Source: Myxococcales bacterium 68-20 | GTDB lineage: Bacteria; Myxococcota_A; Polyangia; Polyangiales; Polyangiaceae | DNA length: 64,000 nt | NCBI GenBank assembly: GCA_001899635.1 | Contig: MKVQ01000022.1 | Span: 1-64,000 of the forward strand | Reading direction: 5' to 3' | Shown: piece after piece, positions 3,001 to 64,000 of the stretch | Numbering within the stretch: position 1 is the stretch's first letter | Layout: every line of letters begins with the position of its first letter | Notes under the pieces: generated by a model | What the model was told of the DNA's origin: nothing | Seen by the model: the letters and a program-made list of their open reading frames with translations, nothing else | Database searches by the model: none | Position numbers and translations under genes: made by a program

Positions 3001-3924
3001 GTGACAGAAGATGCGGTCACCGCAAGCTGGGGACATGCGTCTCCGTGCACTTGGTCGATTCTCGTGCATGGTGGTGCAGGCGACATCGCGGCCGAACGGC
3101 TGCCGCTCCACATCGCCGGATGCGAGCGGGCGGCGGCGGCAGGAGCTGCCGTACTCGCGGCCGGTGGAAGCGCGCTGGACGCGGTTCAGCGCGCCGTCGA
3201 GGTGCTCGAGGACGATCCGTCCTTCAACGCGGGCACCGGCGCCTGCTTGAACGCGGACGGCGCGATCGAGCTCGACGCGTCGATCATGGACGGGACCACG
3301 CTCACGGCGGGCGGCGTCTGCGCGCTCCCTCCGTTCAAGAACCCGATCGCGATCGCACGACGCGTGATGATCCGATCACGTCACGTGCTCCTCGCGGGTG
3401 ACGGCGCAGTGCGGTTCGCCCTGGCGGAGGGCTTCGAGCGTGCCGACCCCGAGTCGATGATCACCGAGCTCGCACGAACGCGGCTCGAAGCCGTCCGCGC
3501 GAAGGACGCGGCAGAGAACAAGTCGGGCGGCACGGTCGGCGCCGTAGCTCGCGATGCCAGCGGACGCGTCGCGGCGGCGACGAGCACGGGCGGAATGGTC
3601 AACAAGCTCGCCGGGCGGGTAGGGGACTCCCCGATCGTCGGCGCGGGCACCTACGCGGACGACACGACCGCCGCGTGCTCCACGACCGGGCACGGCGAAG
3701 CCATGATGCGTGTCTGTCTCGCCAAGACGACGACCGACGCGACACGCACCACGAGCGCAGAGACCGCTGCCCGAGTCTCACTGGCCATGATGCACGAGCG
3801 TACGCAAGGCGTCGGCGGAGCGATCATCGCTGGGCGCGACGGATCGCTCGGCCTCGCGCGCACCACGCGCACAATGAGCTGGGCCGCCGTGACGAACGAC
3901 GGCACGCGCGCTTCAGGCGCGTGA
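3001..3924 (+). CDS. iaaA: Isoaspartyl peptidase / L-asparaginase, Ntn-hydrolase family
   Basis: This is an N-terminal nucleophile hydrolase of the plant-type asparaginase/isoaspartyl dipeptidase family (EcAIII-like). It cleaves beta-aspartyl peptides and asparagine after autoproteolysis. Family motifs are present in order: the N-terminal LVHGGAGD, FNAGTGACLN, LDASIMDG, and the autocleavage site KSGGTVGAVA, whose Thr becomes the new N-terminus of the beta subunit. SPIVGAGTYADD and TGHGEAMMR line the substrate pocket. GTG 3001 is chosen because GGGAGGAG lies about 8 bp upstream; an in-frame ATG at 2977 would add eight residues. It is a single-gene unit. Confidence 0.9.
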   Translation: MTEDAVTASWGHASPCTWSILVHGGAGDIAAERLPLHIAGCERAAAAGAAVLAAGGSALDAVQRAVEVLEDDPSFNAGTGACLNADGAIELDASIMDGTTLTAGGVCALPPFKNPIAIARRVMIRSRHVLLAGDGAVRFALAEGFERADPESMITELARTRLEAVRAKDAAENKSGGTVGAVARDASGRVAAATSTGGMVNKLAGRVGDSPIVGAGTYADDTTAACSTTGHGEAMMRVCLAKTTTDATRTTSAETAARVSLAMMHERTQGVGGAIIAGRDGSLGLARTTRTMSWAAVTNDGTRASGA

Positions 3925-6197: not shown

Positions 6198-7745
<1,548 letters not shown>

Positions 7746-10074: not shown

Positions 10075-10986
10075 TCAGAAGCTGCCGCCGATGCCTGCGT
10101 AGCCGCCGCCCGCGATCGGGCCGCCATCGATACGGAGCCAGTCCTTCTTCTTCGTCTGCCCGGCCGTCTGGACCTTGCTCGTGTCGATCGTCGGACGAGA
10201 GAAGAACATGTACGCCGCGACACCGAGGGCGACGACGCCGACGCCGAGCGAGATGTCGGCGATGATCAGCTTCGTTCGCGCACTGTCGACGTCAGCCTCC
10301 GCACAGTTCGGCTTGCACTTCTGGAGGTCGTCGACGGCGTTCTTTCCGCCGATACCGAAGATCGCGAAGCTTCCGAGCGCGAGGACACCGATGCCTCCGA
10401 CGACGAGGGCAGGGACCACCGAGCCCTCTCCGGTAGAGCCGGTGGTGGGGCCCTTGTCCCCGGTGCCGCCGCCGCCCTTGTTGTTGTCGCCGATGGCGTC
10501 CGCCGCGGAGGGGAACGTCGCGATGATCGGGCGCGCCTTCTCCGCCGCGCGGACGAGAACGCGCTCCTCTTTGACCGCTCCCTCCTTGCTCTCGAACTTG
10601 AAGGTGTGCTCGCCGGAGTCGACGAGGACCGGCTTGCCGTCGAGGCGCTCCTGGATCGGAGCGCCGTCCATCGACACCTTCACGTCGAGGACGTCGCTTC
10701 CCTTGTTGTCGCGCGCGCCGAAGACGACGGTCGGAGCGTCGCGATCGAGCTCGGTGAGCCACTTCCCGCAGTCGCTCTTGATCGGCCCGGGGCACACGTC
10801 GCGCGCGCAGACGAGCATCTGCTCACGTGCGCGACGGTATTTGCCCTCGTCGCGGAGCTGCTGGGCGTGCTCTGCCGAGGCCGCGCACTGCTCGCGGTCG
10901 TCAGGTGCGGCGAAGGCGACACCCTCGACAAGCACCGTCGTCATGAGGGCCACCGCAGCGACTACTCCCGGCCTTTTCATCCGCAT
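10075..10986 (-). CDS. Secreted/periplasmic protein with TPR-like start and two membrane segments
   Basis: The 303-residue product starts with a signal peptide ending VAFAAP. A Cys-containing helical segment (REQCAASAEHAQQLRDEGKY) has the look of a TPR motif. A beta region (VLDVKVSMDGAPI to HTFKF) is PEGA-like. A Gly/Thr-rich linker and two hydrophobic helices, SVVPALVVGGIGVLALGSF and IIADISLGVGVVALGVAAYMF, complete it. This is the same architecture as the genes at 37608 and 59369, so the three are probably one paralogous family, each close to a Ser/Thr kinase gene. Family members are uncharacterised. Confidence 0.8.
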   Translation of the reverse strand: MRMKRPGVVAAVALMTTVLVEGVAFAAPDDREQCAASAEHAQQLRDEGKYRRAREQMLVCARDVCPGPIKSDCGKWLTELDRDAPTVVFGARDNKGSDVLDVKVSMDGAPIQERLDGKPVLVDSGEHTFKFESKEGAVKEERVLVRAAEKARPIIATFPSAADAIGDNNKGGGGTGDKGPTTGSTGEGSVVPALVVGGIGVLALGSFAIFGIGGKNAVDDLQKCKPNCAEADVDSARTKLIIADISLGVGVVALGVAAYMFFSRPTIDTSKVQTAGQTKKKDWLRIDGGPIAGGGYAGIGGSF

Positions 10987-12783: not shown

Positions 12784-13353
12784 GTGAAGGTCAATTTCAC
12801 GGATGAGCTCGGGTCCGGGGCGGTATCTGGGTCCGTTTCGGGGTCCGTTTCGGGGTCCGTTTCGGGCTCGCTCGGGAACGCGGTTTCCGCGTTGGCGTCG
12901 TCGAGCGAACCGCTGCATGTCCGCGTGCAGCTCGTCGGCCCCGTCGAAGTGCCGCTTCCTCGCTACCAATCCGAGCACGCCGCCGGGATGGACCTGCAGG
13001 CAGCGATCGCCGAGCCCGTGACACTCCGCTCGCTCGAACGCGTGATCATCCCGACCGGGCTTGCGATGGCGATTCCGACGGGCTGGGAAGGGCAGGTTCG
13101 TCCGCGCTCCGGGCTTGCGGCGAAGCGAGGCGTCACCGTCATCAATGCGCCCGGGACCGTCGACAGCGACTACCGCGGTGAGATCAAGGTCGCGCTGGTG
13201 AACCTGAGCGCCGACCCGGTGACGATCGAGCCGCTCGAACGCATCGCGCAGATCGTCTTCGCACGCCATGGAACCGCGACGCTCGACGTCGTGGCGTCGC
13301 TCGACGAGACCGCACGCGGCGCCGGCGGGTACGGCTCGACCGGCACGCGCTGA
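12784..13353 (+). CDS. dut: dUTP diphosphatase (dUTPase)
   Basis: The enzyme hydrolyses dUTP to dUMP and pyrophosphate, keeping uracil out of DNA and feeding dTMP synthesis. All five trimeric dUTPase motifs are present: AGMDLQAA, PRSGLAAKRGV, GTVDSDYRGEIKV, RIAQIVFAR and the C-terminal RGAGGYGSTG. The start is uncertain. GTG 12784 gives 189 residues with about 40 extra N-terminal residues, including a VSGS tandem repeat, whereas bacterial Dut usually starts just before the LHVRVQLV region. The extension may be untranslated. Confidence 0.93.
   Translation: MKVNFTDELGSGAVSGSVSGSVSGSVSGSLGNAVSALASSSEPLHVRVQLVGPVEVPLPRYQSEHAAGMDLQAAIAEPVTLRSLERVIIPTGLAMAIPTGWEGQVRPRSGLAAKRGVTVINAPGTVDSDYRGEIKVALVNLSADPVTIEPLERIAQIVFARHGTATLDVVASLDETARGAGGYGSTGTR
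12829..12864 (+). repeat. Three tandem copies of a 12-bp unit
   Basis: Three exact copies of GGGTCCGTTTCG run without a break. In the dut frame they encode repeated Gly-Ser-Val-Ser. They lie in the poorly conserved N-terminal extension, where copy-number change would not disturb the enzyme core. Confidence 0.9.
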
Positions 13354-18608: not shown

Positions 18609-20840
18609 ATGGCCTCTTCACGAAGGGGCAAGGGAGCCGCCGGCCCGACTCACGGCAGCCGCGCAGAGGACGCGGCCGCCGCAGGTGGGAAGCGGGGGCG
18701 GACGGCTGCGCTCGAGCCGCTTGCGCTCGTCGATCGCCTGCCCGGGCTCGGCCCCGCCGCGCGTAGCGCGCTCGCCGAGCACGGGATCCGCACCGTTGCC
18801 GACCTGGTCTGGACGCCGCCGTCGGGCTGGGATGACCTCCGCGCGCCGCAGTCGCTCACGGAGGTCGTCGCTGCCGCCGCCGCCGGCCCCGTCCGGGCCA
18901 CCTTCGCCGCGACGGTCGAGAGCGCGTCGTTCATTCCGTTCCAGCGCCGGAGGTGCGTGCGCGTCGTGCTGCGCGACAACACCGACGCTGCATGCAAACT
19001 GCACGCATTCTGGTTCTTCAGCGCGCACGGCGTCCTCGCGCTCGCGAAGCCGGGGGTCGCCGTGCTGGTGACCGCGCGCGTCACCGCGCCACCGAAGAAG
19101 CCGCCGCGCACGGCGCACCCCGACCTCGTGCTCGACTCGCCCGAGGTGCGTACCGTCCGCCCGCGCTACCCGCGGCTCGGCCCGAGCGGCGCCCTCGTGA
19201 AGAAGGCGATCGCGCATGCGGTCACGGAGCTGACGCGGGAGCGACCAGGTCGACGGGGCGGAGAGGCTGCAGCGCTCGATCCGATGCCCGCCGCGATCGC
19301 GACGCGGGAGGGGAAGGGCCCGGCGTCTCGGCTCCTCAGGAGCGTCCACGCGGCGACCGGCGAGCTCCCCGACGACGACGATCGACGCGCATTCGTCGAG
19401 CGCCTCGCGTGGGCGGAGGCCTTTACGCGCGCGTGGGAGCGCCTCCTCGCGGAGGAAGGGCTCGCCGCTGTACCCGCGCTCGCGCTTCCTCCCGTGCCGG
19501 ACACTGTGTCGAGGCTGGAGGACGCGCTCGGGTTCACGATGACGGACGATCAGCGCCGCGCATGCGCTGACGTCGCGCGCGAGCTCGGAGGCACGAGGCC
19601 GATGCGGCGCCTCGTGCTCGGCGACGTGGGAACGGGGAAGACCGCGGTCGCGCTCGCCGCAATCGCCCAGTGCGTGGCCGCGGGACGCCAGGCGGCGATC
19701 CTCGCGCCGACCAGCGTCCTGGCCGAGCAGTACCTCGCTGCGGTTCGTCCGCTCGAGCAAGCGACCGGCACACGCGTCGCATTCGTCGCCGCCGGGATGC
19801 CCGCTTCCGACCGAAGGCGCGCCGAGGGGTTGCTCGCGAGCGCCGAGGCGAGCGTCGCGATCGGAACGCACGCGCTGCTCGGGGAGGGGATCGCGCTGCC
19901 GAAGCTCTCCCTCGTGGTCGTCGACGAGCAGCAGCGTCTCGGCGTCGGGCAGCGCCTCGCGCTCGTGCAGAAGGGAGAGCGACCGCACCTCCTCTCGTTG
20001 AGCGCGACGCCGATCCCGCGCACGCTCGCGCTCGCGCTCCGCGGAGAGCTCGCGACGTCGGTGCTTCGCGAGCGGCCCGCCGGACGGAAGCCGGTGGCGA
20101 CCTCGCTCGCGTCCCGTGGCGATCTCACGCATGTCGTCCGCCAGGTCGAGGCGGCCGTCGCGCGCGGAGAGCGCGTGTTCTGGATCGTCCCTCGCGTCGA
20201 GGACGACGACGATGACGACGACGTGAACGAGCTTGCGTCGGCCGAGGCGCGCACGAAGGCGCTGCGGAAGGCGCTCGGCACCGCGGCGGCCGGGATGATC
20301 CACGGCAAGATGTCGTCCGCCGACAAGCGCTCGGCGATGAACGCCTTCCGCTCGGGCGACACGCCGGTGCTGGTCGGGACCACGGTCGTCGAGGTCGGCG
20401 TCGACGTTCCGGAGGCGACGCTCATCGTCATCGAGGACGCGGAGCGCTACGGGCTCGCGCAGCTCCATCAGCTCCGCGGACGCGTGGGGCGCGGCGATCG
20501 TCCGGGCGCTTGCATCTTGCTGCACGGCGAGCTGCTCGACGGACTCGCGCGGCAGCGGCTCGACTCGATGACGCGCCTCGAGAGCGGAGAGGCGATCGCG
20601 CGCGCCGACCTCGAGCTCCGCGGTTCGGGCGATCTCGGCGGTACCCGGCAGCATGGCGAAGAGGAGGAGCTCGTCTACCTCGACGCTGGCGCCGAGTACC
20701 CGTGGCTCGAACGGATCGAAGCGGACGCGCGCCATCTCCGCCGCACCGATCCCGGTCTCGAGCAACCCGAACATCGCGTCCTCGGGTCGATCGTCGCAAG
20801 GCTCCGGCGGGCGCTCGCCGTGAGGGAGGAGGCCGGGTGA
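18609..20840 (+). CDS. recG: ATP-dependent DNA helicase RecG
   Basis: RecG remodels stalled replication forks and branched DNA. The 743-residue product has an N-terminal wedge region with an OB-like fold (90-190). The superfamily 2 core follows, with Walker A GDVGTGKT (338-345), the DExH box as DEQQRLG (most RecG proteins have DEQHR), SATPIPRTLAL, and motif VI GRVGRGDRPG. There is an unusual run of eight aspartates near residue 535, in the loop after FWIVPRVE. That insertion is probably surface exposed. The terminal TRQHG region is retained. The helicase is otherwise intact. Confidence 0.95.
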   Translation: MASSRRGKGAAGPTHGSRAEDAAAAGGKRGRTAALEPLALVDRLPGLGPAARSALAEHGIRTVADLVWTPPSGWDDLRAPQSLTEVVAAAAAGPVRATFAATVESASFIPFQRRRCVRVVLRDNTDAACKLHAFWFFSAHGVLALAKPGVAVLVTARVTAPPKKPPRTAHPDLVLDSPEVRTVRPRYPRLGPSGALVKKAIAHAVTELTRERPGRRGGEAAALDPMPAAIATREGKGPASRLLRSVHAATGELPDDDDRRAFVERLAWAEAFTRAWERLLAEEGLAAVPALALPPVPDTVSRLEDALGFTMTDDQRRACADVARELGGTRPMRRLVLGDVGTGKTAVALAAIAQCVAAGRQAAILAPTSVLAEQYLAAVRPLEQATGTRVAFVAAGMPASDRRRAEGLLASAEASVAIGTHALLGEGIALPKLSLVVVDEQQRLGVGQRLALVQKGERPHLLSLSATPIPRTLALALRGELATSVLRERPAGRKPVATSLASRGDLTHVVRQVEAAVARGERVFWIVPRVEDDDDDDDVNELASAEARTKALRKALGTAAAGMIHGKMSSADKRSAMNAFRSGDTPVLVGTTVVEVGVDVPEATLIVIEDAERYGLAQLHQLRGRVGRGDRPGACILLHGELLDGLARQRLDSMTRLESGEAIARADLELRGSGDLGGTRQHGEEEELVYLDAGAEYPWLERIEADARHLRRTDPGLEQPEHRVLGSIVARLRRALAVREEAG

Positions 20841-21004: not shown

Positions 21005-24000
21005 GTGTGGCTCCTGCGTCTGAGGAGGTTCGATCGCGACGTCGGGCTCGTGCTCGCGACGTTCGTCGTCTTGTTGGCGATTGAGAACCTCGCCATCGGA
21101 ATCGGTTATCGCTCCGAGTTCGTGAGCTCGTGGGAGATGGGCAGCGCGCGCCTCTATCTCTCGCCGATCGCCCTCGCGCTTTCGATCCCGATTGCGCTCT
21201 CGGCCGTCCTCGTCGCCCGGCTCGCCGTTGGACGGCGCCCGTGGGGCGTCGGGCTCATCGGCCTGATCGGTGGAGCCGCGCTCGCGATCGGCGTCTCGAC
21301 GGGACGGCGCATGGCGAGCCTCGCGGTCCGCGCGCCCTTCGTCGCGCTCGTTGCGCTCGTCGTCGCGCTGGTGGCCTGGCTCCTCGCGCGGGAGCTTCCT
21401 CGTCTCCGCCCCACGTTGGTGGCGGCGCTCGGCGCGCTCGTCGCCGTCGTCGCGTGGCTCGCCGATGCGTTCGTCCTCCCGCGCCTGTATCCGGCGTTCC
21501 ACCTCGCGCTCTTCTTCCTGACGTTCATCGCCTGGGCGGCGACCTCGCTCGTCTTCGTGCCACGTCGCTCGGCCCGGCCGTCCACGGCGACCTCGCTGGT
21601 CGCGTTCGCCGGCATCCTGCTCGCGGCGGCCTCCGTCGCGTGGGCGCCGCACGCTGCGAAGCGGATCGTCCTCGAAGACAACCTCCGCCGCGTCATGCTC
21701 GAGCGCGCTCCCGTCCTCGGACGCGCAGTCGTGGTCGGCAATCGGATCGCGCCGCCGCCGCCGCTCGAAGACGACGCCGCCACCGAGGCGACGCTCGCGA
21801 ACCTGCGGGAGCGGAAGAAGACGCGCGCGCTCGACTGGCAAGGAAGCGACATCGTCCTCGTCACGATCGACGCTCTTCGTGCCGACCACCTCTCGTCGTA
21901 CGGCTACGCGCGGAAGACGACGCCGAACATCGACGCCCTCGCGGCGCGCGGTGCGCGGTTCGAGCACGCGTATTGCCCCACGCCGCACACGTCGTACTCG
22001 ATCGCGTCGCTGATGACCGGCAAGTACATGAAGCCGCTTCTTGCCCTCGGCGCGGAGGACGAGAGCGAGACGTGGGCGGTGCAGCTGCGCCGGTACGGCT
22101 ACCGAACCGCAGCGTTCTATCCGCCGGCGGTCTTCTTCATCGACGAGCACCGGTTCCGCCGGATGCGCGACGAGAGCCTCGGGTTCGAGTACAAGAAGGA
22201 AGAGTTCGCCGCGACCCACCTCCGGCGCGCGCAGATCGAGCGCTATCTCTCGCTCGCGCCGAAGGACAAGCCGCTCTTTCTCTGGGTGCACATCTTCGAG
22301 CCCCACGAGCCGTACGAGGCCCACCCGGACTTCCCGTTCGAGGGGGATCCGCGCGTCGACGCTTACGACAGCGAGGTCGCCGCCGCCGACGCGCTGGTGG
22401 GCGACATCGTCCGGCTCGTCGAGGAGAAGCGCTCTCCGGGCGCTGTGTTCATCGTCAGCGCCGATCACGGCGAGGAGCACGGCGATCACGGTGGCCGCTA
22501 CCACGGGACCACGGTCTACGAGGAGCAGGTGCGCGTACCGCTCGTCGTCGTCGGGCCCGGGATCGCCCCGCGTGTCGTCCGGCCGCCCGTGCAGACGATC
22601 GATCTGCTCCCCACGTCGCTCGCGGCGCTCGACGTCCCGATCCCTCCGCGGATCCGGGGTAGGGACCTCGGGCCCGCGCTCGTCGGCGCCGAGCCGGAGG
22701 CGGAGCAAGGCCTCGCGTTTGCGGAGACCGACGACTACACGCTCGTCGCGCGCGGCACCGACCGACTCGTCTGTGCGCGCAAGATCGGGTCGTGCACGTT
22801 GTTCGACATCGCGCGCGACCCGGGGCAGAAGCGCCCCATCAACGACGAACGCGCCGCGCGGGTCGACGAGCTCAAGAAGCTCACGGCGGCGATCGAGCGC
22901 GAGACCGGGAAGGTGGAGGTGAGCGGTCTCCCCGACGCGCTTCGGCGCGGCCTTCAGGGCGATCGCGACGCTGCCGAAGACGTGGCGACGTTGCTCGACG
23001 ATGCACGCGTCGACATTCGCCGCCTCGCCGCGCGCTGCGCGTTCAAGCTCGCGGCGCCGGAGATGAAGGCGCAGCTCGTGCGCGCCGAGTCCCATGACGA
23101 TGACGCCGAGGTGCGCCGGTGGAGCTCGCTCGCGCTCCTCCGGCTCGGTGAGGGCGTCGCGCCGAGGAGCGCGCGCGTCGAGGCCGTCGTCGACGGCGTC
23201 CTCCGCCGGGGAGCGACCACCGACGAGAAGGTCGCTGCCGCGCTCGCGCTCGCCGAGCACGGTGATGCGCGGGGCGAGGCGGAGCTCATCGCGCGCTGGT
23301 CGGCGGCGTTCGTGCCCGACGCGCCGGAGGCCGGCGAGCTCGACGACGCTCGGGCCATCCTCTCGGCATTTGCGGCACTACGCTCGAAGAGCGCCGTCCC
23401 GCTGCTCCTGCGCACGCTGGAGGACGTCCGCCTTCGCCCTCACGTCGTCGCGACGCTTGCGGAGATCGGTGACTTCCGCGCCAAGGATCCGCTCCTCGAG
23501 GTCTTTTCCGTGGAGCGCTACGTCCACTTCCGCGGGCCGGAGGCACGGGCGCTCTTCAAGCTCGGCGCAAGGGAGAAGCTCATGCCCGGGCTCACGCGCT
23601 TCGCCGGTACGCCCGAGCCGATGGCGGAGGCGATCGCGATCGCGCGCGATGCAAGGCAGCTGTCGCCCGATCACGGCGGATGGGTCGCGCCGGCGCCGGG
23701 CGTCCACCCCGAATCGGTCGCCGTGAAGCTGCGGGTCGACAAGCCCGGGCCCTCGCGCCTGCTCGTCCTCGGAGCCCCGGGCTCGGGCACGACGAGCGGC
23801 GTCCTCGGCGGGACGGTCGACGGCGTTCCGATCCCGGAGACGACGGCGAACGACGCCGACGTCTTCGTCGTCGAGCTCGGTGAGGTCGCGGGGCGCGAGG
23901 TCCAGGTGAGCCTGACGACCTCCGCTGGGATCGGCGCGCTGTGGCTCGTACCGCGGGCGGACGAGATCCCGCCGCCGCCGCCGCGCGCATGGGATGCCGG

Positions 24001-24167: not shown

Positions 24168-25472
24168 GTGAGCGACGAAAAGCGTAGCGAAGACGAGAAA
24201 GACGACAAGGCTGAGGCCTCCGAGGACGCTTCTGCGAAGGCGGCTGGCGGGAGCGCCGAGACCGCTTCCGAGGCGGACGCCGACGTCGCCGTTGCCGAAC
24301 GTCCCGCGGACGCAAAGGACTCGGAGGAGGGGAGCGAGGACGATGACGCGGCGAACCCGGCCGCGATCGCGCGCCGTGTCGCTGCGCTCGGCGCGGACGA
24401 CGCGAGCGAGGAGCTCGCGACCGAAGAGGAACGCAAGCTCGCCGAACGCCGCGCTGCGACGACGACCAAGAAGAAGGGCATCAAGAAGAAGGCGGGCCTC
24501 GAGGTCGCCGCATCGAAGAAGCTCTCCAAGATCGGCACGCGCGCCGAGCCGAAGCGCAACGTCGCGGTCGCGGCGGACGCCGACCCGCTGATCGAGCGCA
24601 CCGCGAAGCTGAGCGACTGGGCCAAGAAGAACCAGAAGGTCGTCCAGGTCATCGGCGGCCTCTTGGTCGCGGCGCTGCTCGGGACCGCGGGCTTCCTCTA
24701 TTACGAGAACAAGCGTGAGACGGAAGCGTCGTTGAGCCTCACGAAGGCCGTCGAGGCGCAGAACGCCCAGATCGGCGAGCCGAAGAAGGACGACGAGGAC
24801 GACGACAACCGGAAGCAGTACTTCAAGACGTTCGACGATCGTCGCGCCGCAGCGCTCCAGCAGTACCGAGACGTCCAGGCGAAGTTCCGCGGCACGGGCG
24901 CGGCCATCCTCGCGCGGCTCGCCGAGGGCTCGCTGCTCCTCGACAAGCGCGACGCCGACGGCGCGATCGCGGCGTTCAACGAGGTGAAGGGATCACCGCT
25001 CGCCACGGCCGACACGGAAGTGCGGGGCAGGGCGCTCGAGGGCCTCGGCTTCGCGCACGAGCTGAAGGCCGATACGACGCCCGCGGAGAAGGACAAGGAG
25101 CTCGACGCGGCCTTCGCTGCCTACAAGGAGCTCGAGACCGCGGCGGACGTGAAGGGCTTCAAGGAGCTCGCGATGTACCACCAGGCGCGAGTCCTCATGG
25201 CCAAGGGTGACAAGGACAAGGCGAAGGAGACCCTCATCGCCTTGAAGGAGCGCCTCAACGTCTTCGAGGAGCCGCTCGCGCCCGGGCTCCCGATGCCGCC
25301 GCAGTTCCCGTACCTGAAGGAAATGGCGATGGACCGCCTCCACGAGCTCGATCCCGCGGCGGCGCCGAAGAAGTCCGCGCACGGGGCGGCCGGCGGCGGA
25401 ATGAACCTCTCGCCGGAGCAGATCAAGAAGCTGATCGAGGACATGCAGAAGCAGCAGCGGGGCGGGCATTGA
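24168..25472 (+). CDS. YfgM-like TPR protein (ancillary translocon/BAM-linked)
   Basis: The 434-residue product has a long charged cytoplasmic N-terminus (1-150, Glu/Lys rich), one transmembrane helix (VIGGLLVAALLGTAGFLYY), and a periplasmic TPR domain (RAAALQQYRDVQAKFRGTGA, RLAEGSLLLDKRDADGAIAAF). This is the architecture of YfgM, a partner of SecYEG and periplasmic chaperones. It overlaps the following BamB-like gene by 4 bp, and yfgM-bamB is the gene order in E. coli. The long acidic extension is not found in E. coli. GTG 24168 was chosen as the first start after the upstream stop. Confidence 0.8.
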   Translation: MSDEKRSEDEKDDKAEASEDASAKAAGGSAETASEADADVAVAERPADAKDSEEGSEDDDAANPAAIARRVAALGADDASEELATEEERKLAERRAATTTKKKGIKKKAGLEVAASKKLSKIGTRAEPKRNVAVAADADPLIERTAKLSDWAKKNQKVVQVIGGLLVAALLGTAGFLYYENKRETEASLSLTKAVEAQNAQIGEPKKDDEDDDNRKQYFKTFDDRRAAALQQYRDVQAKFRGTGAAILARLAEGSLLLDKRDADGAIAAFNEVKGSPLATADTEVRGRALEGLGFAHELKADTTPAEKDKELDAAFAAYKELETAADVKGFKELAMYHQARVLMAKGDKDKAKETLIALKERLNVFEEPLAPGLPMPPQFPYLKEMAMDRLHELDPAAAPKKSAHGAAGGGMNLSPEQIKKLIEDMQKQQRGGH

Positions 25473-26776: not shown

Positions 26777-26852
26777 CCGCAACTGACCGCGACGGACGCG
26801 TTGCGGAGCTTGCTCCCGTGGCGGCGATGAAGGCTACGTCCGCCCGCAACTG

Positions 26853-27293: not shown

Positions 27294-27313
27294 CGTTTAG
27301 TTCCGGTGAGTGA

Positions 27314-27412
27314 ATCGTCTACGTGGACAAGCCAGACGGCGTGACCGCGCCGCTGATGATGGTGTCCGCCGACGAGCTCGAGCCTAGGAGCTTCGTGCAA
27401 TTCGTCAAATAG
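27314..27412 (+). pseudogene. Truncated gene fragment
   Basis: A coding-like open stretch (VYVDKPDGVTAPLMMVSADE...SFVQFVK) is preceded directly by a stop codon at 27311 and ends at TAG 27410-27412. It has no start with a ribosome binding site and looks like the 3' end of a lost gene. A strong terminator follows 40 bp later. Confidence 0.4.
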
Positions 27413-27451
27413 GTGTCGGATCTCGTTCGGGGCGCGTCGGAGGGCTTGAAA

Positions 27452-27486
27452 CGACGAGCAGCGCTTTACGAAAGCGCTGCTCGTCG
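27452..27486. terminator. Strong 16-bp hairpin terminator
   Basis: A perfect 16-bp stem starting CGACGAGCAGCGCTTT (27452-27467), with loop ACG, has its complement at 27471-27486. It can act in either direction by symmetry, but no T-run is present. It is presumably the old terminator of the truncated gene. Confidence 0.65.
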
Positions 27487-27896
27487 CGCACGGAGATGCA
27501 TGCCTGGGACGAACGAACCGCCGTGCTGAGCGGACTGACTGGCTAGCTGTAGCTGGCTTGAGAGGCCGGCTGCCACGACCGACCGCGCCGAGAACGGGTC
27601 AGCGCGCTGCCACGCGCGATGACGAACGCGCGCTCGCTCACGGAACCCATCCGGCGCGGCCGACGACATGCCACGACCGCCGACGCGACCAAACAGAACG
27701 AGCGACCCGACGTGCGCCCGCTGGAAGACCTCGGCGCCCGCATACGAGACCGACTGTCTCCGCGACGAACGACGGACCGACGACCGGCTCGAAGCCAGAG
27801 CCGTGACCAACGGTCGACGACGCTGACTCGACGACGAGACAGTCCGACCGGGCTCCGCGGGGCGGGGTTTCGCCTCCCCTGGCCGGCCCCGTTCGA

Positions 27897-27924
27897 ATTT
27901 CGCATAAGATGCATTATGTCAACT
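27897..27924 (+). other. dif: dif site (XerC/XerD chromosome dimer resolution site)
   Basis: The 28-bp site reads as an 11-bp XerC-type arm ATTTCGCATAA (27897-27907), a 6-bp spacer GATGCA (27908-27913) and an 11-bp XerD-type arm TTATGTCAACT (27914-27924). The E. coli dif arms are GGTGCGCATAA and TTATGTTAAAT, so 8 of 11 and 9 of 11 positions match, with the inner palindrome CGCATAA...TTATG exact and the 6-bp spacing kept. It lies in a gene-free stretch. Known biology: XerCD acts here during FtsK-dependent chromosome segregation, so this marks the terminus region. Confidence 0.85.
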
Positions 27925-28043
27925 CGCGGTACGCGATCGCCCGTGTTTTGTGGGGTGCGGGCGTTTCGGTCCGGAATCCCGGTTCCGTCGCCGAGGCGCT
28001 CGAGGTTCGTCTGCGGTGGGCTCCGCGGCGCTCTGTCTGAGGT

Positions 28044-28116
28044 CGGATGGCTGGTCGCGGTCGAGCACCGGATGCCTCGTCGACGGTCGCGCACCGGATG
28101 GCTGGTCGCGGTCGAG
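28044..28116 (+). repeat. Direct repeat of 22 bp, 51 bp apart
   Basis: Two exact copies of a 22-bp unit beginning CGGATGGCTGGTCGCG (28044-28065 and 28095-28116). A partially related copy, CACCGGATGCC at about 28066, lies between them. This is probably a degenerate tandem array close to dif. Confidence 0.75.
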
Positions 28117-28183
28117 GACGACGCGCGGCACGGCATGCACGAGGTCAGCGACCGCGCTGGTGACCACGACGGAGTGACGGAAC

Positions 28184-29074: not shown

Positions 29075-29169
29075 TCACGTCGGGCTGGCCGTCCGGGCCG
29101 TTCGCGGAGAAGCCAGCCAAGCCCAGGCATCGCTCGGAGATGGAGCTGCCAGGCGCTCGCGAACCGACG

Positions 29170-29189
29170 CCGAGAACGTGCGTTCTCGG
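29170..29189. repeat. Palindrome downstream of the HAD gene
   Basis: Arms CCGAGAACG and CGTTCTCGG flank TG. It lies 96 bp after the HAD gene stop and may be a weak terminator or an operator for the lipoprotein gene at 29309. Confidence 0.4.
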
Positions 29190-29308
29190 TGAGGCCGTTC
29201 ACAGGCGTGTACCGCGTGACGGTCGCGGTCACTCGGAAGGTGGCAAAAATACGGCCGAAATGGCCTGGTGCGGCACTCGGCGTGGGGCTTGCTGGAGCGC
29301 GAGGACAC

Positions 29309-29869: not shown

Positions 29870-29885
29870 GCGAGCGGGCGGGGCA

Positions 29886-29932: not shown

Positions 29933-30056
29933 AACGCGAGGCGCGGGAGGGCGCGCGTCCCCTGCCCGCGTCGTCCAGGCGCGACCGAGTGCCCCGCTCC
30001 ATGGATGACGGGCTCCGTGGGTTGACTCGCCTGCGTGCTTCGTGGAGCGTTGGTGC

Positions 30057-30911
30057 ATGGTCGCGGCCGCCGCCGGGTCCCTCGAGAGCGTCCTGCCCGA
30101 GCGGCGGCGTCCGGGTTACGGCGCGATCGTCGCGAGCGTGAGCGGTGGACGAACCGTGCTCGCGATGGTGCGCGCGAACAGCCCGCTTCGCTTCGTTCGG
30201 CCGACGTTCCCGGGGACGACGAGCGCCGCGGTGTGCCTCGTGACGTTCGGCGGCGGGCTGGTCGACGGTGACGAGGTCGACGTCGATCTGGAGGTCGAAC
30301 CAGGAGCGACGCTCGTCGTCTTCACGCAGGCGTCGACGAAGGTGTTCCGCGGAGCGTCACGCCAGGCGTTGCGCGCGAAGGTCGAAGGCACGCTCGTGCT
30401 GCTGCCCGATCCCGTGTCGGCCTTCGCCGGGGCGCGCTACACACAAGCGGTCGACGTCGCGCTCGGGTTGGACGGCGCCTGCGTGCTCCTCGACGGGTTC
30501 ACCGCGGGCCGCCCGGCCTTCGGCGATCGCTGGGCGATGAACGCCCTGGAGCTCCGCACCACCGTGACGCACGAGGGCCGCGCGGTGCTCACCGACGCGC
30601 TCAGTCTCGACACGGCCGACGGCGCGATCACGGAGCGGGCAGGGCGCTTCGACGCGTTCGCGACGCTCGTCGCAGTGGGCCGCAGGGTCTCTCCGGTCGT
30701 CTCCGCGATCCAGCGCGAGGTCGTCGCGCCGCCTTCGCGCGACCTCGTCGTTGCGGCGAGCCCCCTGCCCCGCGCCGACGCGCTCGAGCTGCCCGGCGCG
30801 ATCGCCCGCGTGGCCGCGTCGAGCTCGGCGCGTGCGCTCGCTGCCGTTCGATCGCGTCTCCGAAACCTTCCCGACATCGACGCAGTGGACCCTTTTGGTT
30901 CTCGGTACTGA
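30057..30911 (+). CDS. ureD: Urease accessory protein UreD
   Basis: UreD (UreH in some species) is the scaffold that binds the urease apoenzyme and receives nickel from UreG. The 284-residue product carries the family features FTQASTKVFRG, the central GGGLVDGDEVDVDLEV and LLDGFTAGRPAFGDRWAM. ATG 30057 is preceded by GGAG 9 bp upstream; GTG 30042 is an alternative. It is the first gene of a urease operon whose order is ureD-ureAB-ureC-ureF-ureG. Confidence 0.92.
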   Translation: MVAAAAGSLESVLPERRRPGYGAIVASVSGGRTVLAMVRANSPLRFVRPTFPGTTSAAVCLVTFGGGLVDGDEVDVDLEVEPGATLVVFTQASTKVFRGASRQALRAKVEGTLVLLPDPVSAFAGARYTQAVDVALGLDGACVLLDGFTAGRPAFGDRWAMNALELRTTVTHEGRAVLTDALSLDTADGAITERAGRFDAFATLVAVGRRVSPVVSAIQREVVAPPSRDLVVAASPLPRADALELPGAIARVAASSSARALAAVRSRLRNLPDIDAVDPFGSRY

Positions 30912-30917
30912 GCGCGC

Positions 30918-34092: not shown

Positions 34093-34856
34093 GCCACGAC
34101 CACGATCATCATCACGGTCACACGCACGCGCATGATCACGACCACGGCGATCATCATCACGGTCACACGCACGAGCGTTGGAGCGGCCCCGGCCTCTTCC
34201 GTAGCCGTCCGCCGCGCCGGGCGCGCTCGTTCTCGACGCGCGCCTTCACGGTCGGGATCGGCGGACCGGTCGGCAGCGGCAAGACCGCGCTCGTCCTGTC
34301 GCTCTGCACGAAGCTTCGGGAGCGGATGCGGCTCGGCGTGGTGACGAACGACATCTTCACCCGGGAAGACGCCGAGTTCCTCCACCGGCACGAGGCCCTC
34401 CCCACGGCGCAGATCCGTGCGGTCGAGACGGGAGGCTGCCCCCATGCGGCCATCCGCGAGGATGTCACGCCGAACCTCGACGCGCTCGAGGACCTGATGC
34501 GCGTGTGCGCCCCCGAGCTTCTCATCGTCGAGAGCGGCGGTGACAACCTCGCGGCGCAGTACAGCCGCGAGCTCGTCGACTTCACGATCTACGTCATCGA
34601 CGTCGCCGGCGGTGACAAGGTTCCGCGCAAGGGCGGCCCCGGCGTCACGCAGAGCGATCTGCTCGTCGTCAACAAGACCGATCTCGCGCCCCACGTCGGC
34701 GCGAGCCTCGAGGTGATGGCGCGCGATGCCGAGCGCGTGCGTCAGGGCGGACCGGTCGTCTTCGCGCGATGCAACGTCGGCGACGGAGTCGACGAGATCA
34801 TCGACCATGTCCTCGCCGCGCGGACGGAGGCGCTGGCCACTGTGACGGAGGGCTGA
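34089..34856 (+). CDS. ureG: Urease accessory GTPase UreG with histidine-rich N-terminus
   Basis: UreG is the GTPase that delivers nickel to urease. The 255-residue product has the P-loop [11 protein letters not shown] (59-66), the nickel-binding CPH motif ([11 protein letters not shown]), ESGGDN, and the guanine-specificity NKTD. The first 28 residues contain 15 histidines. No ureE gene is present in the operon, and UreE is the usual histidine-rich nickel store, so the extension may replace it. The fused tail is built from a duplicated 25-bp unit. The gene ends the operon. Confidence 0.95.
34104..34173 (+). repeat. Duplicated 25-bp unit coding His-rich tail of UreG
   Basis: Two copies of a 25-bp unit beginning GATCATCATCACGG occur at 34104-34128 and 34149-34173, 45 bp apart in phase. 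They encode DHHHGHTH repeats. The exact match suggests a recent duplication. Confidence 0.85.
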
Positions 34857-36792: not shown

Positions 36793-37608
36793 TTATTGCG
36801 CGGGCTGCGCGTCCGTCACCTTGGCGACGCCCGGCGTTGCGGTCGGATCTGCGCCGTTGAACGTGGCTTCCAGCCCCGGCGCGGTCCCCACCTGCTCGAA
36901 GCGGAACGCCTGCACGGAGCCGCCCTGCCCGTCGTCGGTGTAGACCTCGATGGCGTAGGGCACCGCGCTCTCGATCATGCCGGGGACCACGATGTCGAAG
37001 TCGGGCTCCGTCAGCGACGGCACCCGGTACATCGCGACCACGCGCTTGGCGCTCGCATCACTGATGCGCACTTCGACCCGCTTCCCGGCGAAGGCGCCCA
37101 TCGCCTTCATGTGAATCGTCGCGGGCTTTCCGAACTCGGTCGCCGGGCTCGGGGTGTTGAGATTGGTGAAGGACGTGTTGTGGTCGAAGACGACGACGTA
37201 GTTGCCGTCCTCGTCGAGCATCTTGTCTTCGAGCGGGAGACGCCAGGCGTGGTCCAGGAACGTGTCCGGGCGCCGATCGTACGCGCCCGAGTTGTCGTGG
37301 TCCGCGTAGAAGTCGAAGCGGAAGGGGCCGTTCTGTTTCGGGATCGCGCCCTGCACGAAGAATGACGCCGCTGGGCCCCCGAGCGGGACGATGAACCCGC
37401 GCGACTGGATGACGTTCGAGGCATCGACGACGCGGTACTCGAAGCGCTCGTTGACGTGGGAGGTCATCCCCCGGACGGTGACGCGGAGGTTGGAGAAGTT
37501 CGACCGCTCGATCGGCGCGGCCTTCTCGAAGCGATCGAGATCGGTGACGACGAAGCACGAGCTCGAGAGCAGCCCGAAGGCGATCGCGAAGAGCAGACGA
37601 GCACGCAT
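36793..37608 (-). CDS. Lipoprotein of unknown function
   Basis: The 271-residue product starts with the signal peptide MRARLLFAIAFGLLSSSC (Cys18 lipidation likely). A beta-rich domain follows, containing NLRVTVRGMTSHVNERFEY, GPFRFDFYADHDNSGAYD and VFDHNTSFTNLNT. The middle part resembles a carbohydrate-binding or Ig-like fold, but I cannot assign a family. Its start codon overlaps the stop of the upstream gene at 37608 by one base, so the pair are cotranscribed. Confidence 0.75.
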   Translation of the reverse strand: MRARLLFAIAFGLLSSSCFVVTDLDRFEKAAPIERSNFSNLRVTVRGMTSHVNERFEYRVVDASNVIQSRGFIVPLGGPAASFFVQGAIPKQNGPFRFDFYADHDNSGAYDRRPDTFLDHAWRLPLEDKMLDEDGNYVVVFDHNTSFTNLNTPSPATEFGKPATIHMKAMGAFAGKRVEVRISDASAKRVVAMYRVPSLTEPDFDIVVPGMIESAVPYAIEVYTDDGQGGSVQAFRFEQVGTAPGLEATFNGADPTATPGVAKVTDAQPAQ

Positions 37609-40070: not shown

Positions 40071-40112
40071 GCGATGAACGAGGTGCCGCCCCCCTGCCCC
40101 CTCGTTCATCGC
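40071..40112. repeat. 13-bp stem hairpin
   Basis: GCGATGAACGAGG (40071-40083) pairs with CCTCGTTCATCGC (40100-40112) around a 16-nt loop. It ends 31 bp before the ATG of the lipoprotein gene at 40144, so it could act in its 5' leader. Confidence 0.55.
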
Positions 40113-46374: not shown

Positions 46375-46680
46375 GGCTCCCGACTTCATTCGCTGTTTTC
46401 GTTCGTCCTCGCATCGCGTTCGTTCGAGCGCACGGCCGGGTCGCGGACCGCACGCAAGGGCCGCGACCGGCTGATCAGGGCTCGGCGGAGGGGCGGCCGC
46501 TCGTCCATTCCGTTCCGACGAGCGCACCGACCGACGACGTCTCGAGCGGCTGACCTTCTCGGTCCAGCGCCCTCCCCTACCGGGCATGCAGGCCGCTTCC
46601 GGCGCCTCGTGCCCGGTTTCCGTTTGTGGGCTCGAGGCCGCCGGCGGGCCGCCGCCTTTCGTTGGGGCGCACCAATAGGA
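46375..46680. other. 300-bp gap before the groE terminator
   Basis: No gene was found in this gap on either strand. It lies between the convergent tlpA-like and groEL genes and ends in the shared terminator at 46681. Confidence 0.55.
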
Positions 46681-53456: not shown

Positions 53457-54077
53457 GTGCGCACCGCACCCCTTCCCTTCGTCACGGGCTTGATGCTCAC
53501 CCTTGCGTCGGCGGCCAGCGCCGAGCCTCCACGCGAGCACCGCGAGCGCGTCATCGTGACGTCGAAGCGCGCCGCCGTGCTCGAGGAGCGTCTCGCCGAC
53601 GAATCCTACTGGCGTGTCGTCTGCCGCGCCCCGTGTGAAGCTCGCGTCCTCGCCGCGCCGATGGCCGAGCACCGCGTGATCGTGAAGGGCGAGCGCGAGC
53701 CGACGCCCGTCTACGTGCCCGCCGGTCAGGGCGACGTCGCCGTCGACATCCCGGAGGACGAGCGGAGCGTTGCGCTCGCCGTCAGCGGCATTAGCCTCGC
53801 CGTGATCGGCAACGGCATCATGCTCGCAGCGCTCGCAGCGATCACGCGCGATCGGTCTCCCGAGGAGCCCGACGCGCGGATCGCCACCATGGCCGGGGTC
53901 GGCCTCGCCACCGGGGCGTTCGGCGTGGTGCTCACCGTTCTGGCCCTACGCTCGCCGGCCCCGCCGCGCGTCACCGCGCAGCGATCGCCCCCCCGACCGG
54001 AGCCGGCCACTGCGGCCCTCCCCTCGACGCCCGGGGCGACGCGCCTCGTCGTGCCGGTCTTCAGCCTGGCGTTCTGA
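53457..54077 (+). CDS. Secreted/membrane protein with two C-terminal helices
   Basis: The 206-residue product starts with a signal peptide (MLTLASAASAEP). The lumenal half has a PEGA-like region (VVCRAPCEARVLAAP) with two cysteines. Two hydrophobic helices are ALAVSGISLAVIGNGIMLAA and AGVGLATGAFGVVLTVLAL. A Pro/Ala-rich tail ends in FSLAF. The layout resembles the TPR/PEGA family in this window but without the TPR part. Start GTG 53457 is provisional. Confidence 0.7.
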   Translation: MRTAPLPFVTGLMLTLASAASAEPPREHRERVIVTSKRAAVLEERLADESYWRVVCRAPCEARVLAAPMAEHRVIVKGEREPTPVYVPAGQGDVAVDIPEDERSVALAVSGISLAVIGNGIMLAALAAITRDRSPEEPDARIATMAGVGLATGAFGVVLTVLALRSPAPPRVTAQRSPPRPEPATAALPSTPGATRLVVPVFSLAF

Positions 54078-54902: not shown

Positions 54903-55883
54903 TCAGAGCGGATAGCGCTTGATGCACTTCGTGTCGGTCGGGCCCGTCGAGCCGACCCACTCGCCATCGACGCAGCGCGACCAACGCTGGTTGCTGCGCG
55001 ACTGCACGCAGACGTTCTCGTCGACAGGACGTCCGAGCGTCGCGCTCTGGCACTGCTCGTCGTTCGCGGGCACGCTCTGGATCGCGCGCTTCACCGACGG
55101 GACCTCCTCGAGCGCCGTGAACTTGTACCCCTCCGCGATCAGCGTCGGGAGGATGTACTTGACCATGTCGACGGTCTTGTCGTGGATGTCGTGCATCAGG
55201 ACGATGCCGCGCTTCTTCGCACGGATCTCCTTCAGATAGAGGTCGCCGCAGCGCTGCACGCTGACGCCCTTCCCCCAGCAGTCCCAGTCCGCGGCCGCGT
55301 TCGCCGTCAGCGCTCCGCCCTCGTCCCAGAACACGCTGCCGACGTACTTCTTCATCGCGGTGGCGTTGATCGCGCGCGCGACCCCCGCGTTCCACGCCCC
55401 GAACGGCGCGCGCACCACCCACGGGCCTTCCGGCTGCGCCGCCGCGATGATCGCGTCCGTGTCGGCGATCTCCTTCACGATGGAGGTCGCGGAGAGCGCG
55501 GTGAGCTGCTTGTGGTTGTGCGTGTGGTTCGCGAGGAGGTGCCCGCGGCCGACGATCTTGTCGACCGCCCCCTGGCGGCCCGCGACCTTGGAGCCGTTGA
55601 TGAAGAACGCCCCCTTCACGCCTTTCTCGGCGAGGTAGTCCGCGAGCTCGGCGGTCCGGCGGCCGGGACCATCGTCGAACGTGAGACTGAGCGTCTTGGC
55701 CGGAAGCTCGCTGCCGTTCAACTGGCGCTCGGCGACGAGCTCGTCTTCGGTCGTCGCGCCGTCGCCGGCCTGGGTCTCGTCGTACTCACCCTCGTCCGAG
55801 TCCGCGTCGACCGCACAGCCCGCGGACGCGACGCACGCCGAGGTGGCAACGAGAAGAAGCGCGAAGAGACGACGAGCGACCAT
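54903..55883 (-). CDS. Polysaccharide deacetylase (NodB family) lipoprotein
   Basis: The 326-residue product has a lipoprotein signal ending SAGC (Cys23) and a linker of acidic residues. The NodB domain carries TFDDGPG (Asp70, Asp71), the zinc histidines HTHNH (120-124), RAPFGAW and HDIHDKT. It removes N- or O-acetyl groups from polysaccharide such as chitin, peptidoglycan or biofilm sugar. A C-terminal Cys-rich region (CQSATLGRP to CIKRYPL) may bind carbohydrate. The ATG at 55883 has GGAGG 8 bp upstream. Confidence 0.92.
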   Translation of the reverse strand: MVARRLFALLLVATSACVASAGCAVDADSDEGEYDETQAGDGATTEDELVAERQLNGSELPAKTLSLTFDDGPGRRTAELADYLAEKGVKGAFFINGSKVAGRQGAVDKIVGRGHLLANHTHNHKQLTALSATSIVKEIADTDAIIAAAQPEGPWVVRAPFGAWNAGVARAINATAMKKYVGSVFWDEGGALTANAAADWDCWGKGVSVQRCGDLYLKEIRAKKRGIVLMHDIHDKTVDMVKYILPTLIAEGYKFTALEEVPSVKRAIQSVPANDEQCQSATLGRPVDENVCVQSRSNQRWSRCVDGEWVGSTGPTDTKCIKRYPL

Positions 55884-57882: not shown

Positions 57883-59352
57883 ATGAACGACACGACAACG
57901 CCGAATTTCATCGGAGGCGAGCTCCTCGCGGGCAAGTACCGGGTCGAGCGCGTGATTGGCGAGGGCGGGATGGGGGTCGTGCTCGCCGCGCGGCACGAGG
58001 CCCTGGCCACGAACGTCGCCATCAAGCTCCTGCGGACGAGCGCGCTCGAGCACACCGACGTCGTCGGTCGCTTCATGCGCGAGGCACGGGCCGCGGTGAG
58101 CCTGCGGAGCGAGCACGTCGCACGCGTGTTCGACGTCGGTAACCTCGAGGACGGTCGGCCCTACATCGTGATGGAGCGGCTCGAGGGCAAGGACCTCGGC
58201 GACGTCATCGATCACGGCGCGTTCGTGCCCGTGGCCGACGCCGTCGACTACGTGATGCAGGCGTGCGAGGCGATCGCCGAGGCGCACGCGGCCGGGATCG
58301 TCCACCGCGATCTCAAGCCGAAGAACCTCTTCCTCACCCACGCGGTCCATGGTCGGCCGCTGGTGAAGGTGCTCGACTTCGGCATCTCGAAGATCGAGAC
58401 GCGGGGCGGCGCGCAGGAGATGCAGCTCACGCGCACCACCGAGGTCATCGGCTCCCCGAGCTACATGTCCCCGGAGCAGCTCCGCTCCTCGCGCAACGTC
58501 GATGCGCGCACGGACATCTGGGCGCTCGGCGTCATCCTGTACGAGCTCCTCACGAAGCGCGTCCCCTTCTATGCCGAGACCGTGACGGAGCTCGTCCTCG
58601 TGGTCGTCACCGAGAAGGAGCCGCCGGTTCGCTCGCTGCGCCCCGACTGCCCCGAGGGGCTCGAGGCGATCGTCGCGCGTTGCCTGCAGAAGCAGCCGGA
58701 GCATCGCTTCCAGAGCGTCGTCGAGCTCGTCCAGGCGCTCGAGCCGTACGCCCACGGCGTCCAGGCCTCGATCACGGAGCGTGTACGCGCGGTGGCGGGG
58801 GCGTCCGGTCGCGGGCTTCCGCCCGCGCCGAGCTCCGGTCCGATGCCGGCGGGAGGCACGGCCCCGGTCCCGTCGGCGACTCCGTCGTCGCGCGTGAACG
58901 TGCACGGCGGGACGTCCGTCGCTTGGGGCGAGACGCAGTCGGTCGTCGGCCCTGCCCCTCACCTCGCGCCTCGGCCCGCGCCGGAACGGAGCTCGCGCGC
59001 CGGGCTCATCGTCGGGCTCGTCGTCGGCGGCCTCGTCATCGCGTCGACGGCTGCGGGCGGCGCGGTCTACTACGTGAAGCGGTCGTCCGCGCACGGTCCT
59101 CCGGCCGCGGCCGCGGCGGCGAGCGGCGACGACGGCCTCCCCTTGCCCCCCGGACGGAAGGACCTACCGCCCGTGCCGACGACGTCCGTCGCGGTCGCGC
59201 CGAGCCCGACCCCGGAGACGCCCGCGGCGAGCGCCTTGCCGGAGACGCGGAAGCCAGCCCCCACCGCGACCGCGCGCACGCCCGGCCCGAAGCCGGCAAA
59301 CACGCCCAACACGACGAGACACGACGATCTGAGCAACATCGGGCGCCGCTGA
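57883..59352 (+). CDS. Membrane-anchored Ser/Thr protein kinase
   Basis: The 489-residue product has an N-terminal kinase domain (about 15-280) with IGEGGMGVVL, Lys48, HRDLKPKN (141-148), DFG (165-167), GSPSYMSPEQ and DIWALGVILYELL. A Pro/Ala-rich linker and one transmembrane helix (GLIVGLVVGGLVIASTAAGGAV) follow. The outer tail is about 100 residues, Pro/Ala/Thr rich. GTG 57877 is an equally possible start two codons earlier. The three genes downstream are on the same strand and may form its operon. Confidence 0.95.
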   Translation: MNDTTTPNFIGGELLAGKYRVERVIGEGGMGVVLAARHEALATNVAIKLLRTSALEHTDVVGRFMREARAAVSLRSEHVARVFDVGNLEDGRPYIVMERLEGKDLGDVIDHGAFVPVADAVDYVMQACEAIAEAHAAGIVHRDLKPKNLFLTHAVHGRPLVKVLDFGISKIETRGGAQEMQLTRTTEVIGSPSYMSPEQLRSSRNVDARTDIWALGVILYELLTKRVPFYAETVTELVLVVVTEKEPPVRSLRPDCPEGLEAIVARCLQKQPEHRFQSVVELVQALEPYAHGVQASITERVRAVAGASGRGLPPAPSSGPMPAGGTAPVPSATPSSRVNVHGGTSVAWGETQSVVGPAPHLAPRPAPERSSRAGLIVGLVVGGLVIASTAAGGAVYYVKRSSAHGPPAAAAAASGDDGLPLPPGRKDLPPVPTTSVAVAPSPTPETPAASALPETRKPAPTATARTPGPKPANTPNTTRHDDLSNIGRR

Positions 59353-62647: not shown

Positions 62648-63580
62648 ATGCAGAAGAGCCCCGCCCTCATCGTTGGATCCGTCGCGTTCGACGATCTCGA
62701 GATGCCGTCCGGTACGTTCAATGACGTCCTCGGAGGCGCCGCCACCTACTCCTCGATCACCGCGTCGCTGCTGACGCCCGTGCGCCTCGTCGGTGTCGTC
62801 GGAAACGACTTCCCCGCAGCGGTCCTCGAGGACCTGAAGCAGCGCGGCGTCGATACCGCCGGCGTCGAGCACGCCGATGGCAAGACGTTCCGCTGGCGCG
62901 GGCGCTACTCGCCGGACCTCTCGAGCCGCACCACGCTCGATACGCAGCTCAACGTCTTCGCCGACTTCCGTCCGAAGATCCCGGCGCAGTTCCGGTCGTC
63001 GCCGTTCGTCCTGCTCGGCAACATTCACCCTGCCCTCCAGCTCGAGGTGCTCGCCCAGGTGGAGAAGCCGAAGCTCGTGATGGCGGACACGATGAACTTC
63101 TGGATCTCCGGCGAGCCGAAGCTCCTCGGCGAGGTCCTCGCGAAGATCGATCTCCTCGTCATCAACGACGAAGAGGCGCGCGAGCTCACCGGGATCCACA
63201 ACCTCGTGAAGGCCGCCGCGGACATTCGCAAGCGTGGGCCGTCGCGCCTCATCATCAAGCGTGGTGAGCACGGAGCCCTCTACTTCGACGACGCCGGCGT
63301 CTTCTTCGCGCCCGGCTATCCGCTCGAGGAGGTCCTCGATCCGACGGGCGCGGGCGACTCGTTCGCCGGCGGGCTCATCGGCTACATCGCGCGCATGGGC
63401 ACGGTCGATCACCAGACGATCCGCAAGGCGATCTACTTCGGCTCGGCGCTGGGCTCGTTCTGCGTCGAGGGCATCGGCCCGAAGCGCCTGCTCGACGTCG
63501 GCGCGAAGGACCTCGACAAGCGCATGCAGCAGTTCATGGCCCTCGTGGAGACGGGCGGCCCCGTTACGCTACCCGAGTGA
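62648..63580 (+). CDS. PfkB-family sugar/nucleoside kinase
   Basis: The 310-residue product has the ribokinase/PfkB fold with LGGAATYSS near the N-terminus (the sugar-binding GG) and the C-terminal phosphate-binding signature DPTGAGDSFAGG, whose Asp is the catalytic base. The fold is shared by adenosine, ribose and 5-methylthioribose-type kinases. The mtnP neighbour makes a nucleoside- or ribose-type substrate a reasonable guess, but MTR-1-phosphate from mtnP needs no kinase. The start is ATG 62648; GTG 62639 is possible. Confidence 0.9.
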   Translation: MQKSPALIVGSVAFDDLEMPSGTFNDVLGGAATYSSITASLLTPVRLVGVVGNDFPAAVLEDLKQRGVDTAGVEHADGKTFRWRGRYSPDLSSRTTLDTQLNVFADFRPKIPAQFRSSPFVLLGNIHPALQLEVLAQVEKPKLVMADTMNFWISGEPKLLGEVLAKIDLLVINDEEARELTGIHNLVKAAADIRKRGPSRLIIKRGEHGALYFDDAGVFFAPGYPLEEVLDPTGAGDSFAGGLIGYIARMGTVDHQTIRKAIYFGSALGSFCVEGIGPKRLLDVGAKDLDKRMQQFMALVETGGPVTLPE

Positions 63581-63590
63581 GAGGATAAAG

Positions 63591-64000
63591 ATGGCGACCC
63601 TGCGCTCGTTCGGTCCGGTGGCTCTTCTCCTGGGGCTCGGTGGCGTTGCCGCTGCCGTCGTGCTCGCCTGCGAGGACGATCCCCACCGCCGAACGGAGCC
63701 AGGGGGTGGCGGTGGCGCGTGCGAGGCCCTGCCCGGCGAGCTGCCGGCGCCCGACTGCGACAACTCGTCGAAGTCGTGCAAGCCGCAGGCCGGCTGCGAG
63801 ATCGACGAAGGCCGTTGCGGGACGAAGTCGACGTGCCTGCCCCTCTCCGACAACAAGGGGAAGGACGTCCTCGACCTCCGGATCCGTCGCCTCAACATCG
63901 CCGCTCCCGAAGCGCTCGCGGGCCAGTTCATCCAGAATACCGTCGTCAACAGCGGCATCGACCTCAACGAGCCGACCTGCTCCGAGATCGGCAAGGGCCT
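63591..64000 (+). CDS. Lipoprotein, partial at window end
   Basis: The first 136 codons are seen. The signal peptide ends VVLAC (Cys31). The mature part is Cys-rich with repeats CDNSSKSCKPQAGCEIDE, CGTKSTCLPL, then EALAGQFIQN and TCSEIGK. It starts 10 bp after the kinase stop with an AGAGG ribosome binding site, so the two are in one operon. Its end and full family cannot be known from this window. Confidence 0.75.
   Translation, partial: MATLRSFGPVALLLGLGGVAAAVVLACEDDPHRRTEPGGGGGACEALPGELPAPDCDNSSKSCKPQAGCEIDEGRCGTKSTCLPLSDNKGKDVLDLRIRRLNIAAPEALAGQFIQNTVVNSGIDLNEPTCSEIGKG

Follow-up and report, generated by a model that had tools for sequence, protein, structure and literature searches.

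A probable chromosomal dif site lies where KOPS polarity converges in a Polyangiales myxobacterium

The window, by which we mean the whole 64-kb stretch of DNA analysed, carries at positions 27897–27924 a 28-bp sequence with the layout of a dif site: two 11-bp arms around a 6-bp centre, and an inner palindrome, CATAA/TTATG, that is exact over 5 bp on direct reading, as the first-pass annotation had claimed. By homology to the dif of E. coli, the left arm is taken to be the XerC side and the right arm the XerD side. The parts of the predicted site are as follows.

27897..27924, + strand, predicted dif site, 28 bp, XerC/XerD recombination site (from the sequence, genome scan, relatives, shuffles and matrix)
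27897..27907, + strand, left (XerC) arm ATTTCGCATAA (from the sequence; 8/11 letters as in E. coli dif)
27908..27913, + strand, central region GATGCA, 6 bp (from the sequence)
27914..27924, + strand, right (XerD) arm TTATGTCAACT (from the sequence; 9/11 letters as in E. coli dif)

The site is flanked by an open reading frame without Pfam match (26853–27293, − strand) and by a gene for a HAD-type hydrolase (28184–29074, + strand). When open reading frames were counted mechanically at 120 amino acids or more, some also spanned the gap around dif, and three of them cover the site or start at its edge (27543–28136, − strand; 27619–28332, + strand; 27919–28305, − strand). Since none of these three has a Pfam match at E 0.1, the site is taken as intergenic; spurious frames are plentiful in the window (about 69% GC).

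Other features were seen in the same neighbourhood. A perfect inverted repeat with 16-bp arms, a 3-base loop and no T run lies at 27452–27486, some 410 bases left of dif; a scan of 20 dif loci for perfect hairpins with arms of at least 12, reaching 1.5 kb from dif, turned up another in G008 alone, and that is a different hairpin. At the G008 locus (L173, contig C51) the right dif arm lies inside a perfect hairpin whose arms measure 22 bp and whose loop has 4 bases, the XerD arm recurring in inverted form after 20 bases. Right of dif in the window, Pfam identifies urease genes at 30042–33385 (ureD, a fused gamma-beta subunit and ureC), and DNA matches place urease genes likewise right of dif in two relatives, G003 and G006. 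On the strand opposite ureC, positions 31819–32114 match the Rfam family 5' ureB antisense RNA (63.2 bits, gathering score 40), a match that may merely mirror conserved urease coding sequence.

The draft genome to which the window belongs (G000; 11,892,454 bases in 52 contigs, 98.4% complete, 4.2% contaminated) has dif on contig C22. With up to 3 mismatches over the 22 arm letters, both arms were matched once in the window and once in the whole draft genome, each time at 27897–27924, and the reversed-pattern control gave no match in the same 11.9 Mb. The earlier call of a single site therefore stands at this threshold, and the many copies that would have spoken against it are not there.

A short palindromic core in an apparently intergenic position could also be an AT-rich palindrome that arose by chance, or a transcription-factor operator with a resemblance to dif. 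We regard this as the least probable of the readings weighed here: 100 dinucleotide-preserving shuffles of the window gave no match to both arms at up to 3 mismatches, and the conservation and KOPS data given below speak against it as well. A matrix built from the sites of 16 relatives, leaving out the window's own site and the second copies G002b, G016a and G034a, which are doubtful, gave the site 58.1 bits. That score is not independent, because the pattern used to collect the 16 sites had itself been derived from the site under test. The reverse reading of the site scored 11.8 bits, the best of the rest of 583,815 bases of the genome (C22 whole, with parts of C48 and C5) 5.3, and the best over six random sequences as long as C22 6.0. 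The evidence from conservation, KOPS and skew is, unlike the matrix, independent of the pattern derived from the site.

Across 58 genomes of the order, this one included, 49 have a dif-like match within 3 mismatches and 44 have exactly one; two or three matches occur in five (G002, G016, G034, G050 and G056), and nine have none at that threshold. The reversed pattern gave zero matches in 57 of the 58 and two in G056. A narrower dif pattern matched 24 stretches in a named genome collection, and the titles of all 24 read Myxococcota, Myxococcales, Polyangiaceae, Labilithrix, Nannocystis or delta-proteobacterium.

In nine genomes of the same genus, 27–28 of the 28 dif letters are kept, and the four 28-bp blocks adjoining dif show mean identities of 9.6, 10.9, 10.6 and 8.7 of 28. 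Single block values range from 3 to 21; the two top values are 21 in G006 and 17 in G003, genomes that have the same gene order around dif as the window. Two genomes stand outside this count, G002, whose syntenic site keeps 23/28, and G004 (72% complete), which has no match. The 28 bp thus stay alike while the flanks diverge, and they persist in G008 and G010 among rearranged neighbours, neither of which would be expected of a chance palindrome or an operator.

The relatives with more than one match raise the possibility that the sequence is an additional dif-like site that a mobile element exploiting the Xer system left behind or uses, with the true dif elsewhere. We consider this very unlikely, if slightly less so than a chance resemblance. 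The draft genome has one match only, G003 and G006 share the neighbours of the locus on both sides, and a Pfam scan of nine flanking proteins found no integrase or phage family.

Some of the additional matches in relatives have features of their own. In G050 (locus L012, contig C63), positions 568–1542 hold a pair of direct repeats of 74 nt that are 72% alike. Both contain a dif-like core that ends in TTACGTCAACT, and they enclose one gene that by eye is glutathione S-transferase-like; this element resembles a gene cassette of an integron-like or dif-module-like kind. The same genome has two more dif-like matches. In G002 (locus L178, contig C84), a second and more diverged dif-like site lies at 8608–8635 of a 10-kb contig that also holds, by eye, putative DNA methylase and restriction-enzyme genes, and that is possibly a mobile module using Xer.

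The orientation of short words relative to dif was counted in an octamer census of 400 kb around dif in each of three relatives (G030, G024 and G029), with no motif assumed. When the octamers seen 60 times or more were ranked by bias, GGGGAGGG (83 towards dif, 12 away) and GGGCAGGG (99 and 20) led the list and GGGAAGGG (55 and 12) took eighth place, with other G-rich octamers between. All three are variants of GGGNAGGG, the octamer known as KOPS that guides FtsK. Ranked against every permutation of six G, one A and one N (56 in all), GGGNAGGG came first in the three relatives (258 towards, 45 away). The other permutations were often biased too (median z of 4.3, against 12.2 for GGGNAGGG), as G-rich words will tend to be where the strand is skewed.

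The window's own contig lies outside the three genomes used to find the motif and served as its test set. Here 36 of 38 copies of GGGNAGGG point towards dif and two away, with 8 towards and none away on the left and 28 towards and two away on the right, a split with a Fisher probability of about 1e-6. The copies within the window are listed below.

3617..3624, + strand, KOPS GGGNAGGG, towards dif
6565..6572, + strand, KOPS, towards dif
10407..10414, + strand, KOPS, towards dif
13085..13092, + strand, KOPS, towards dif
19311..19318, + strand, KOPS, towards dif
19881..19888, + strand, KOPS, towards dif
22657..22664, + strand, KOPS, towards dif
25025..25032, + strand, KOPS, towards dif, the last one left of dif
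29960..29967, − strand, KOPS, towards dif, the first one right of dif
30637..30644, + strand, KOPS, away from dif, the sole such copy in the window
30763..30770, − strand, KOPS, towards dif
34396..34403, − strand, KOPS, towards dif
36923..36930, − strand, KOPS, towards dif
40092..40099, − strand, KOPS, towards dif
46570..46577, − strand, KOPS, towards dif
53470..53477, − strand, KOPS, towards dif
54016..54023, − strand, KOPS, towards dif
55267..55274, − strand, KOPS, towards dif
58950..58957, − strand, KOPS, towards dif
63028..63035, − strand, KOPS, towards dif
63727..63734, − strand, KOPS, towards dif

The best switch of KOPS polarity on this contig, 25,025–29,960, brackets dif (centre 27,910) and ties with a 126-bp interval at 30,637–30,763. 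The best-switch interval also includes dif in G030 and G024, and in G029 it starts 29 bases from the dif centre. At the 24 loci of the named collection, some of which are the same genomes as the numbered relatives, 51 KOPS point towards dif and one away. The site therefore sits where KOPS polarity converges, which of all the evidence speaks most strongly for dif, and this bears on both alternatives: a switch at 27897–27924 is not what an operator or a chance palindrome would give, and convergence on this very copy argues against a true dif elsewhere.

GC skew on the contig (163.8 kb) was +0.023 left of dif and −0.007 right of it, and the cumulative skew reached its maximum at 46,355. The expected change of skew is thus present on the same contig, near dif rather than hundreds of kilobases off, with its maximum about 18 kb right of the site instead of at the site itself. 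Within 200 kb on either side of dif, the skew maximum lay 100 bases off in G029, about 20 kb off in G024 and 163 kb left of dif in G030, where the signal was noisy; GC skew as the sole marker within this range was rejected for G030 on that account. KOPS polarity is a much sharper marker of the terminus here than GC skew. Because KOPS converge on dif, 36/38 towards it, and skew turns 18 kb to its right, we read the window as terminus DNA, as had been proposed from the first pass, with the refinement that dif marks the convergence of KOPS and skew.

The position of dif on a whole chromosome could be followed in G030, a single contig of 12,242,832 bases. With dnaA at base 64 and dif at 5,097,069, the site lies 41.6% of the way round, not 50%. 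In 20 sampled 20-kb slices, skew was positive in 7/9 left of dif and negative in 9/11 right of it, and KOPS stood at 25 to 0 on the left and 33 to 5 on the right; at 6.1 Mb, near the midpoint, they already had right-arm polarity (0 to 2). In these slices the KOPS turn is therefore at dif, not at the midpoint. The figure for dif may itself be 39–48%, because the bracket that KOPS set around the origin is a rough one, running from the slice at 11.5 Mb to the one at 0.3 Mb.

The origin side was also followed in the window's own genome, on contig C48 (693.6 kb). Between 280 and 680 kb there was no KOPS or skew turn at dnaA (480 kb), and the best origin-type KOPS switch in the 400 kb scanned, a weak one, was at 631–651 kb (37/45 agreeing). 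As KOPS and skew keep their sign at dnaA and the weak switch lies at 631–651 kb, oriC may not adjoin dnaA in this genome.

The genome also codes for the predicted partners of the site. A XerD gene lies on the dif contig (C22, 88728–89609; TIGR02225, 347.3 bits against a cut-off of 329.6), and a second recombinase, on C5, matches XerC best, with 316.2 bits for TIGR02224, below the cut-off of 335.15, and is accordingly regarded as a XerC-like candidate. One FtsK-gamma domain was found in each of the four genomes searched, this one included. That of the window's genome aligns with the solved FtsK-gamma chains 2j5o and 2ve8/2ve9 and is identical to them in GYNRAAR, the helix that we take to be the KOPS reader. 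The XerD gene is 61 kb from dif here. A recombinase gene beside dif was rejected as a rule: this proximity is not conserved, since xerD and dif are on different contigs in G024 (C10 and C1) and G029 (C1 and C3) and 2.1 Mb apart in G030.

Taken at the level of sequence, the features of an XerCD-type dif are present wherever they could be tested, XerC with reservation. The single copy, the 28 bp kept amid diverged flanks and the KOPS convergence all bear out the original identification, and we put the probability that 27897–27924 is the chromosomal dif site of a Polyangiales myxobacterium, genuine and ordinary, at about 97%. By analogy with E. coli, the site would bind XerC and XerD and would undergo strand exchange activated by FtsK. 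An odd number of crossovers after replication would leave the sister chromosomes fused as a dimer, and FtsK at the closing septum would pump DNA in the direction set by the GGGNAGGG KOPS that converge from both sides. On reaching the two dif copies FtsK would halt pumping, and its contact with XerD would lead XerC and XerD to swap strands between the copies, separating the dimer.

For the Polyangiales, an order with some chromosomes of more than 10 Mb, we lean towards a picture in which FtsK reads the E. coli octamer and the segregation terminus is set by dif and KOPS polarity, not by the point opposite the origin; the arms of G030 may accordingly differ by 0.6 to 2.6 Mb, as computed from the bracketed origin. 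Here a single draft contig was enough to fix the terminus of a large myxobacterial chromosome, and KOPS polarity, which can narrow dif down to about 5 kb in the face of a weak GC skew, helps to orient draft assemblies of this group. The locus further adds a sharp data point in that the guiding motif of FtsK is probably the same in Myxococcota and gamma-proteobacteria.

Sites of this kind have been predicted widely, with one survey (PMC3025954) giving dif predictions for 641 organisms from 16 phyla. Among the titles listed in searches of the open-access literature, none concerned KOPS or dif in Polyangiales. According to PMC6199493, GGGNAGGG is asymmetrically distributed in numerous bacteria; the same octamer emerged here, unassumed, as the strongest one to switch at dif, in a myxobacterial host rather than in E. 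coli or P. aeruginosa. The same paper describes P. aeruginosa PAO1-UW, in which the arms are unequal and both skew and KOPS change over at dif instead of opposite oriC. G030 resembles this strain in that its turns are at dif and off the midpoint, as judged from sampled slices and an origin that is only bracketed.

Against the sequences printed in PMC2731167, the site shares with E. coli K12 dif the 11-6-11 layout and the inner palindrome; the first-pass count of 8/11 and 9/11 matching letters in the arms is correct, the central region is 2/6 alike and the whole 19/28. It is 21/28 identical to the Geobacter dif. The dif sites of Myxococcus xanthus DK 1622 and Anaeromyxobacter dehalogenans 2CP-C are tabulated there as intergenic and have the same 28-bp arm, centre and arm layout, with 21/28 and 20/28 letters identical to the present site; 7 and 8 letters differ, and the left arm reads CGCATAA here and CCGATAA in theirs. 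By these printed entries the kind of site is already known, from two other Myxococcales, and 27897–27924 adds one more.
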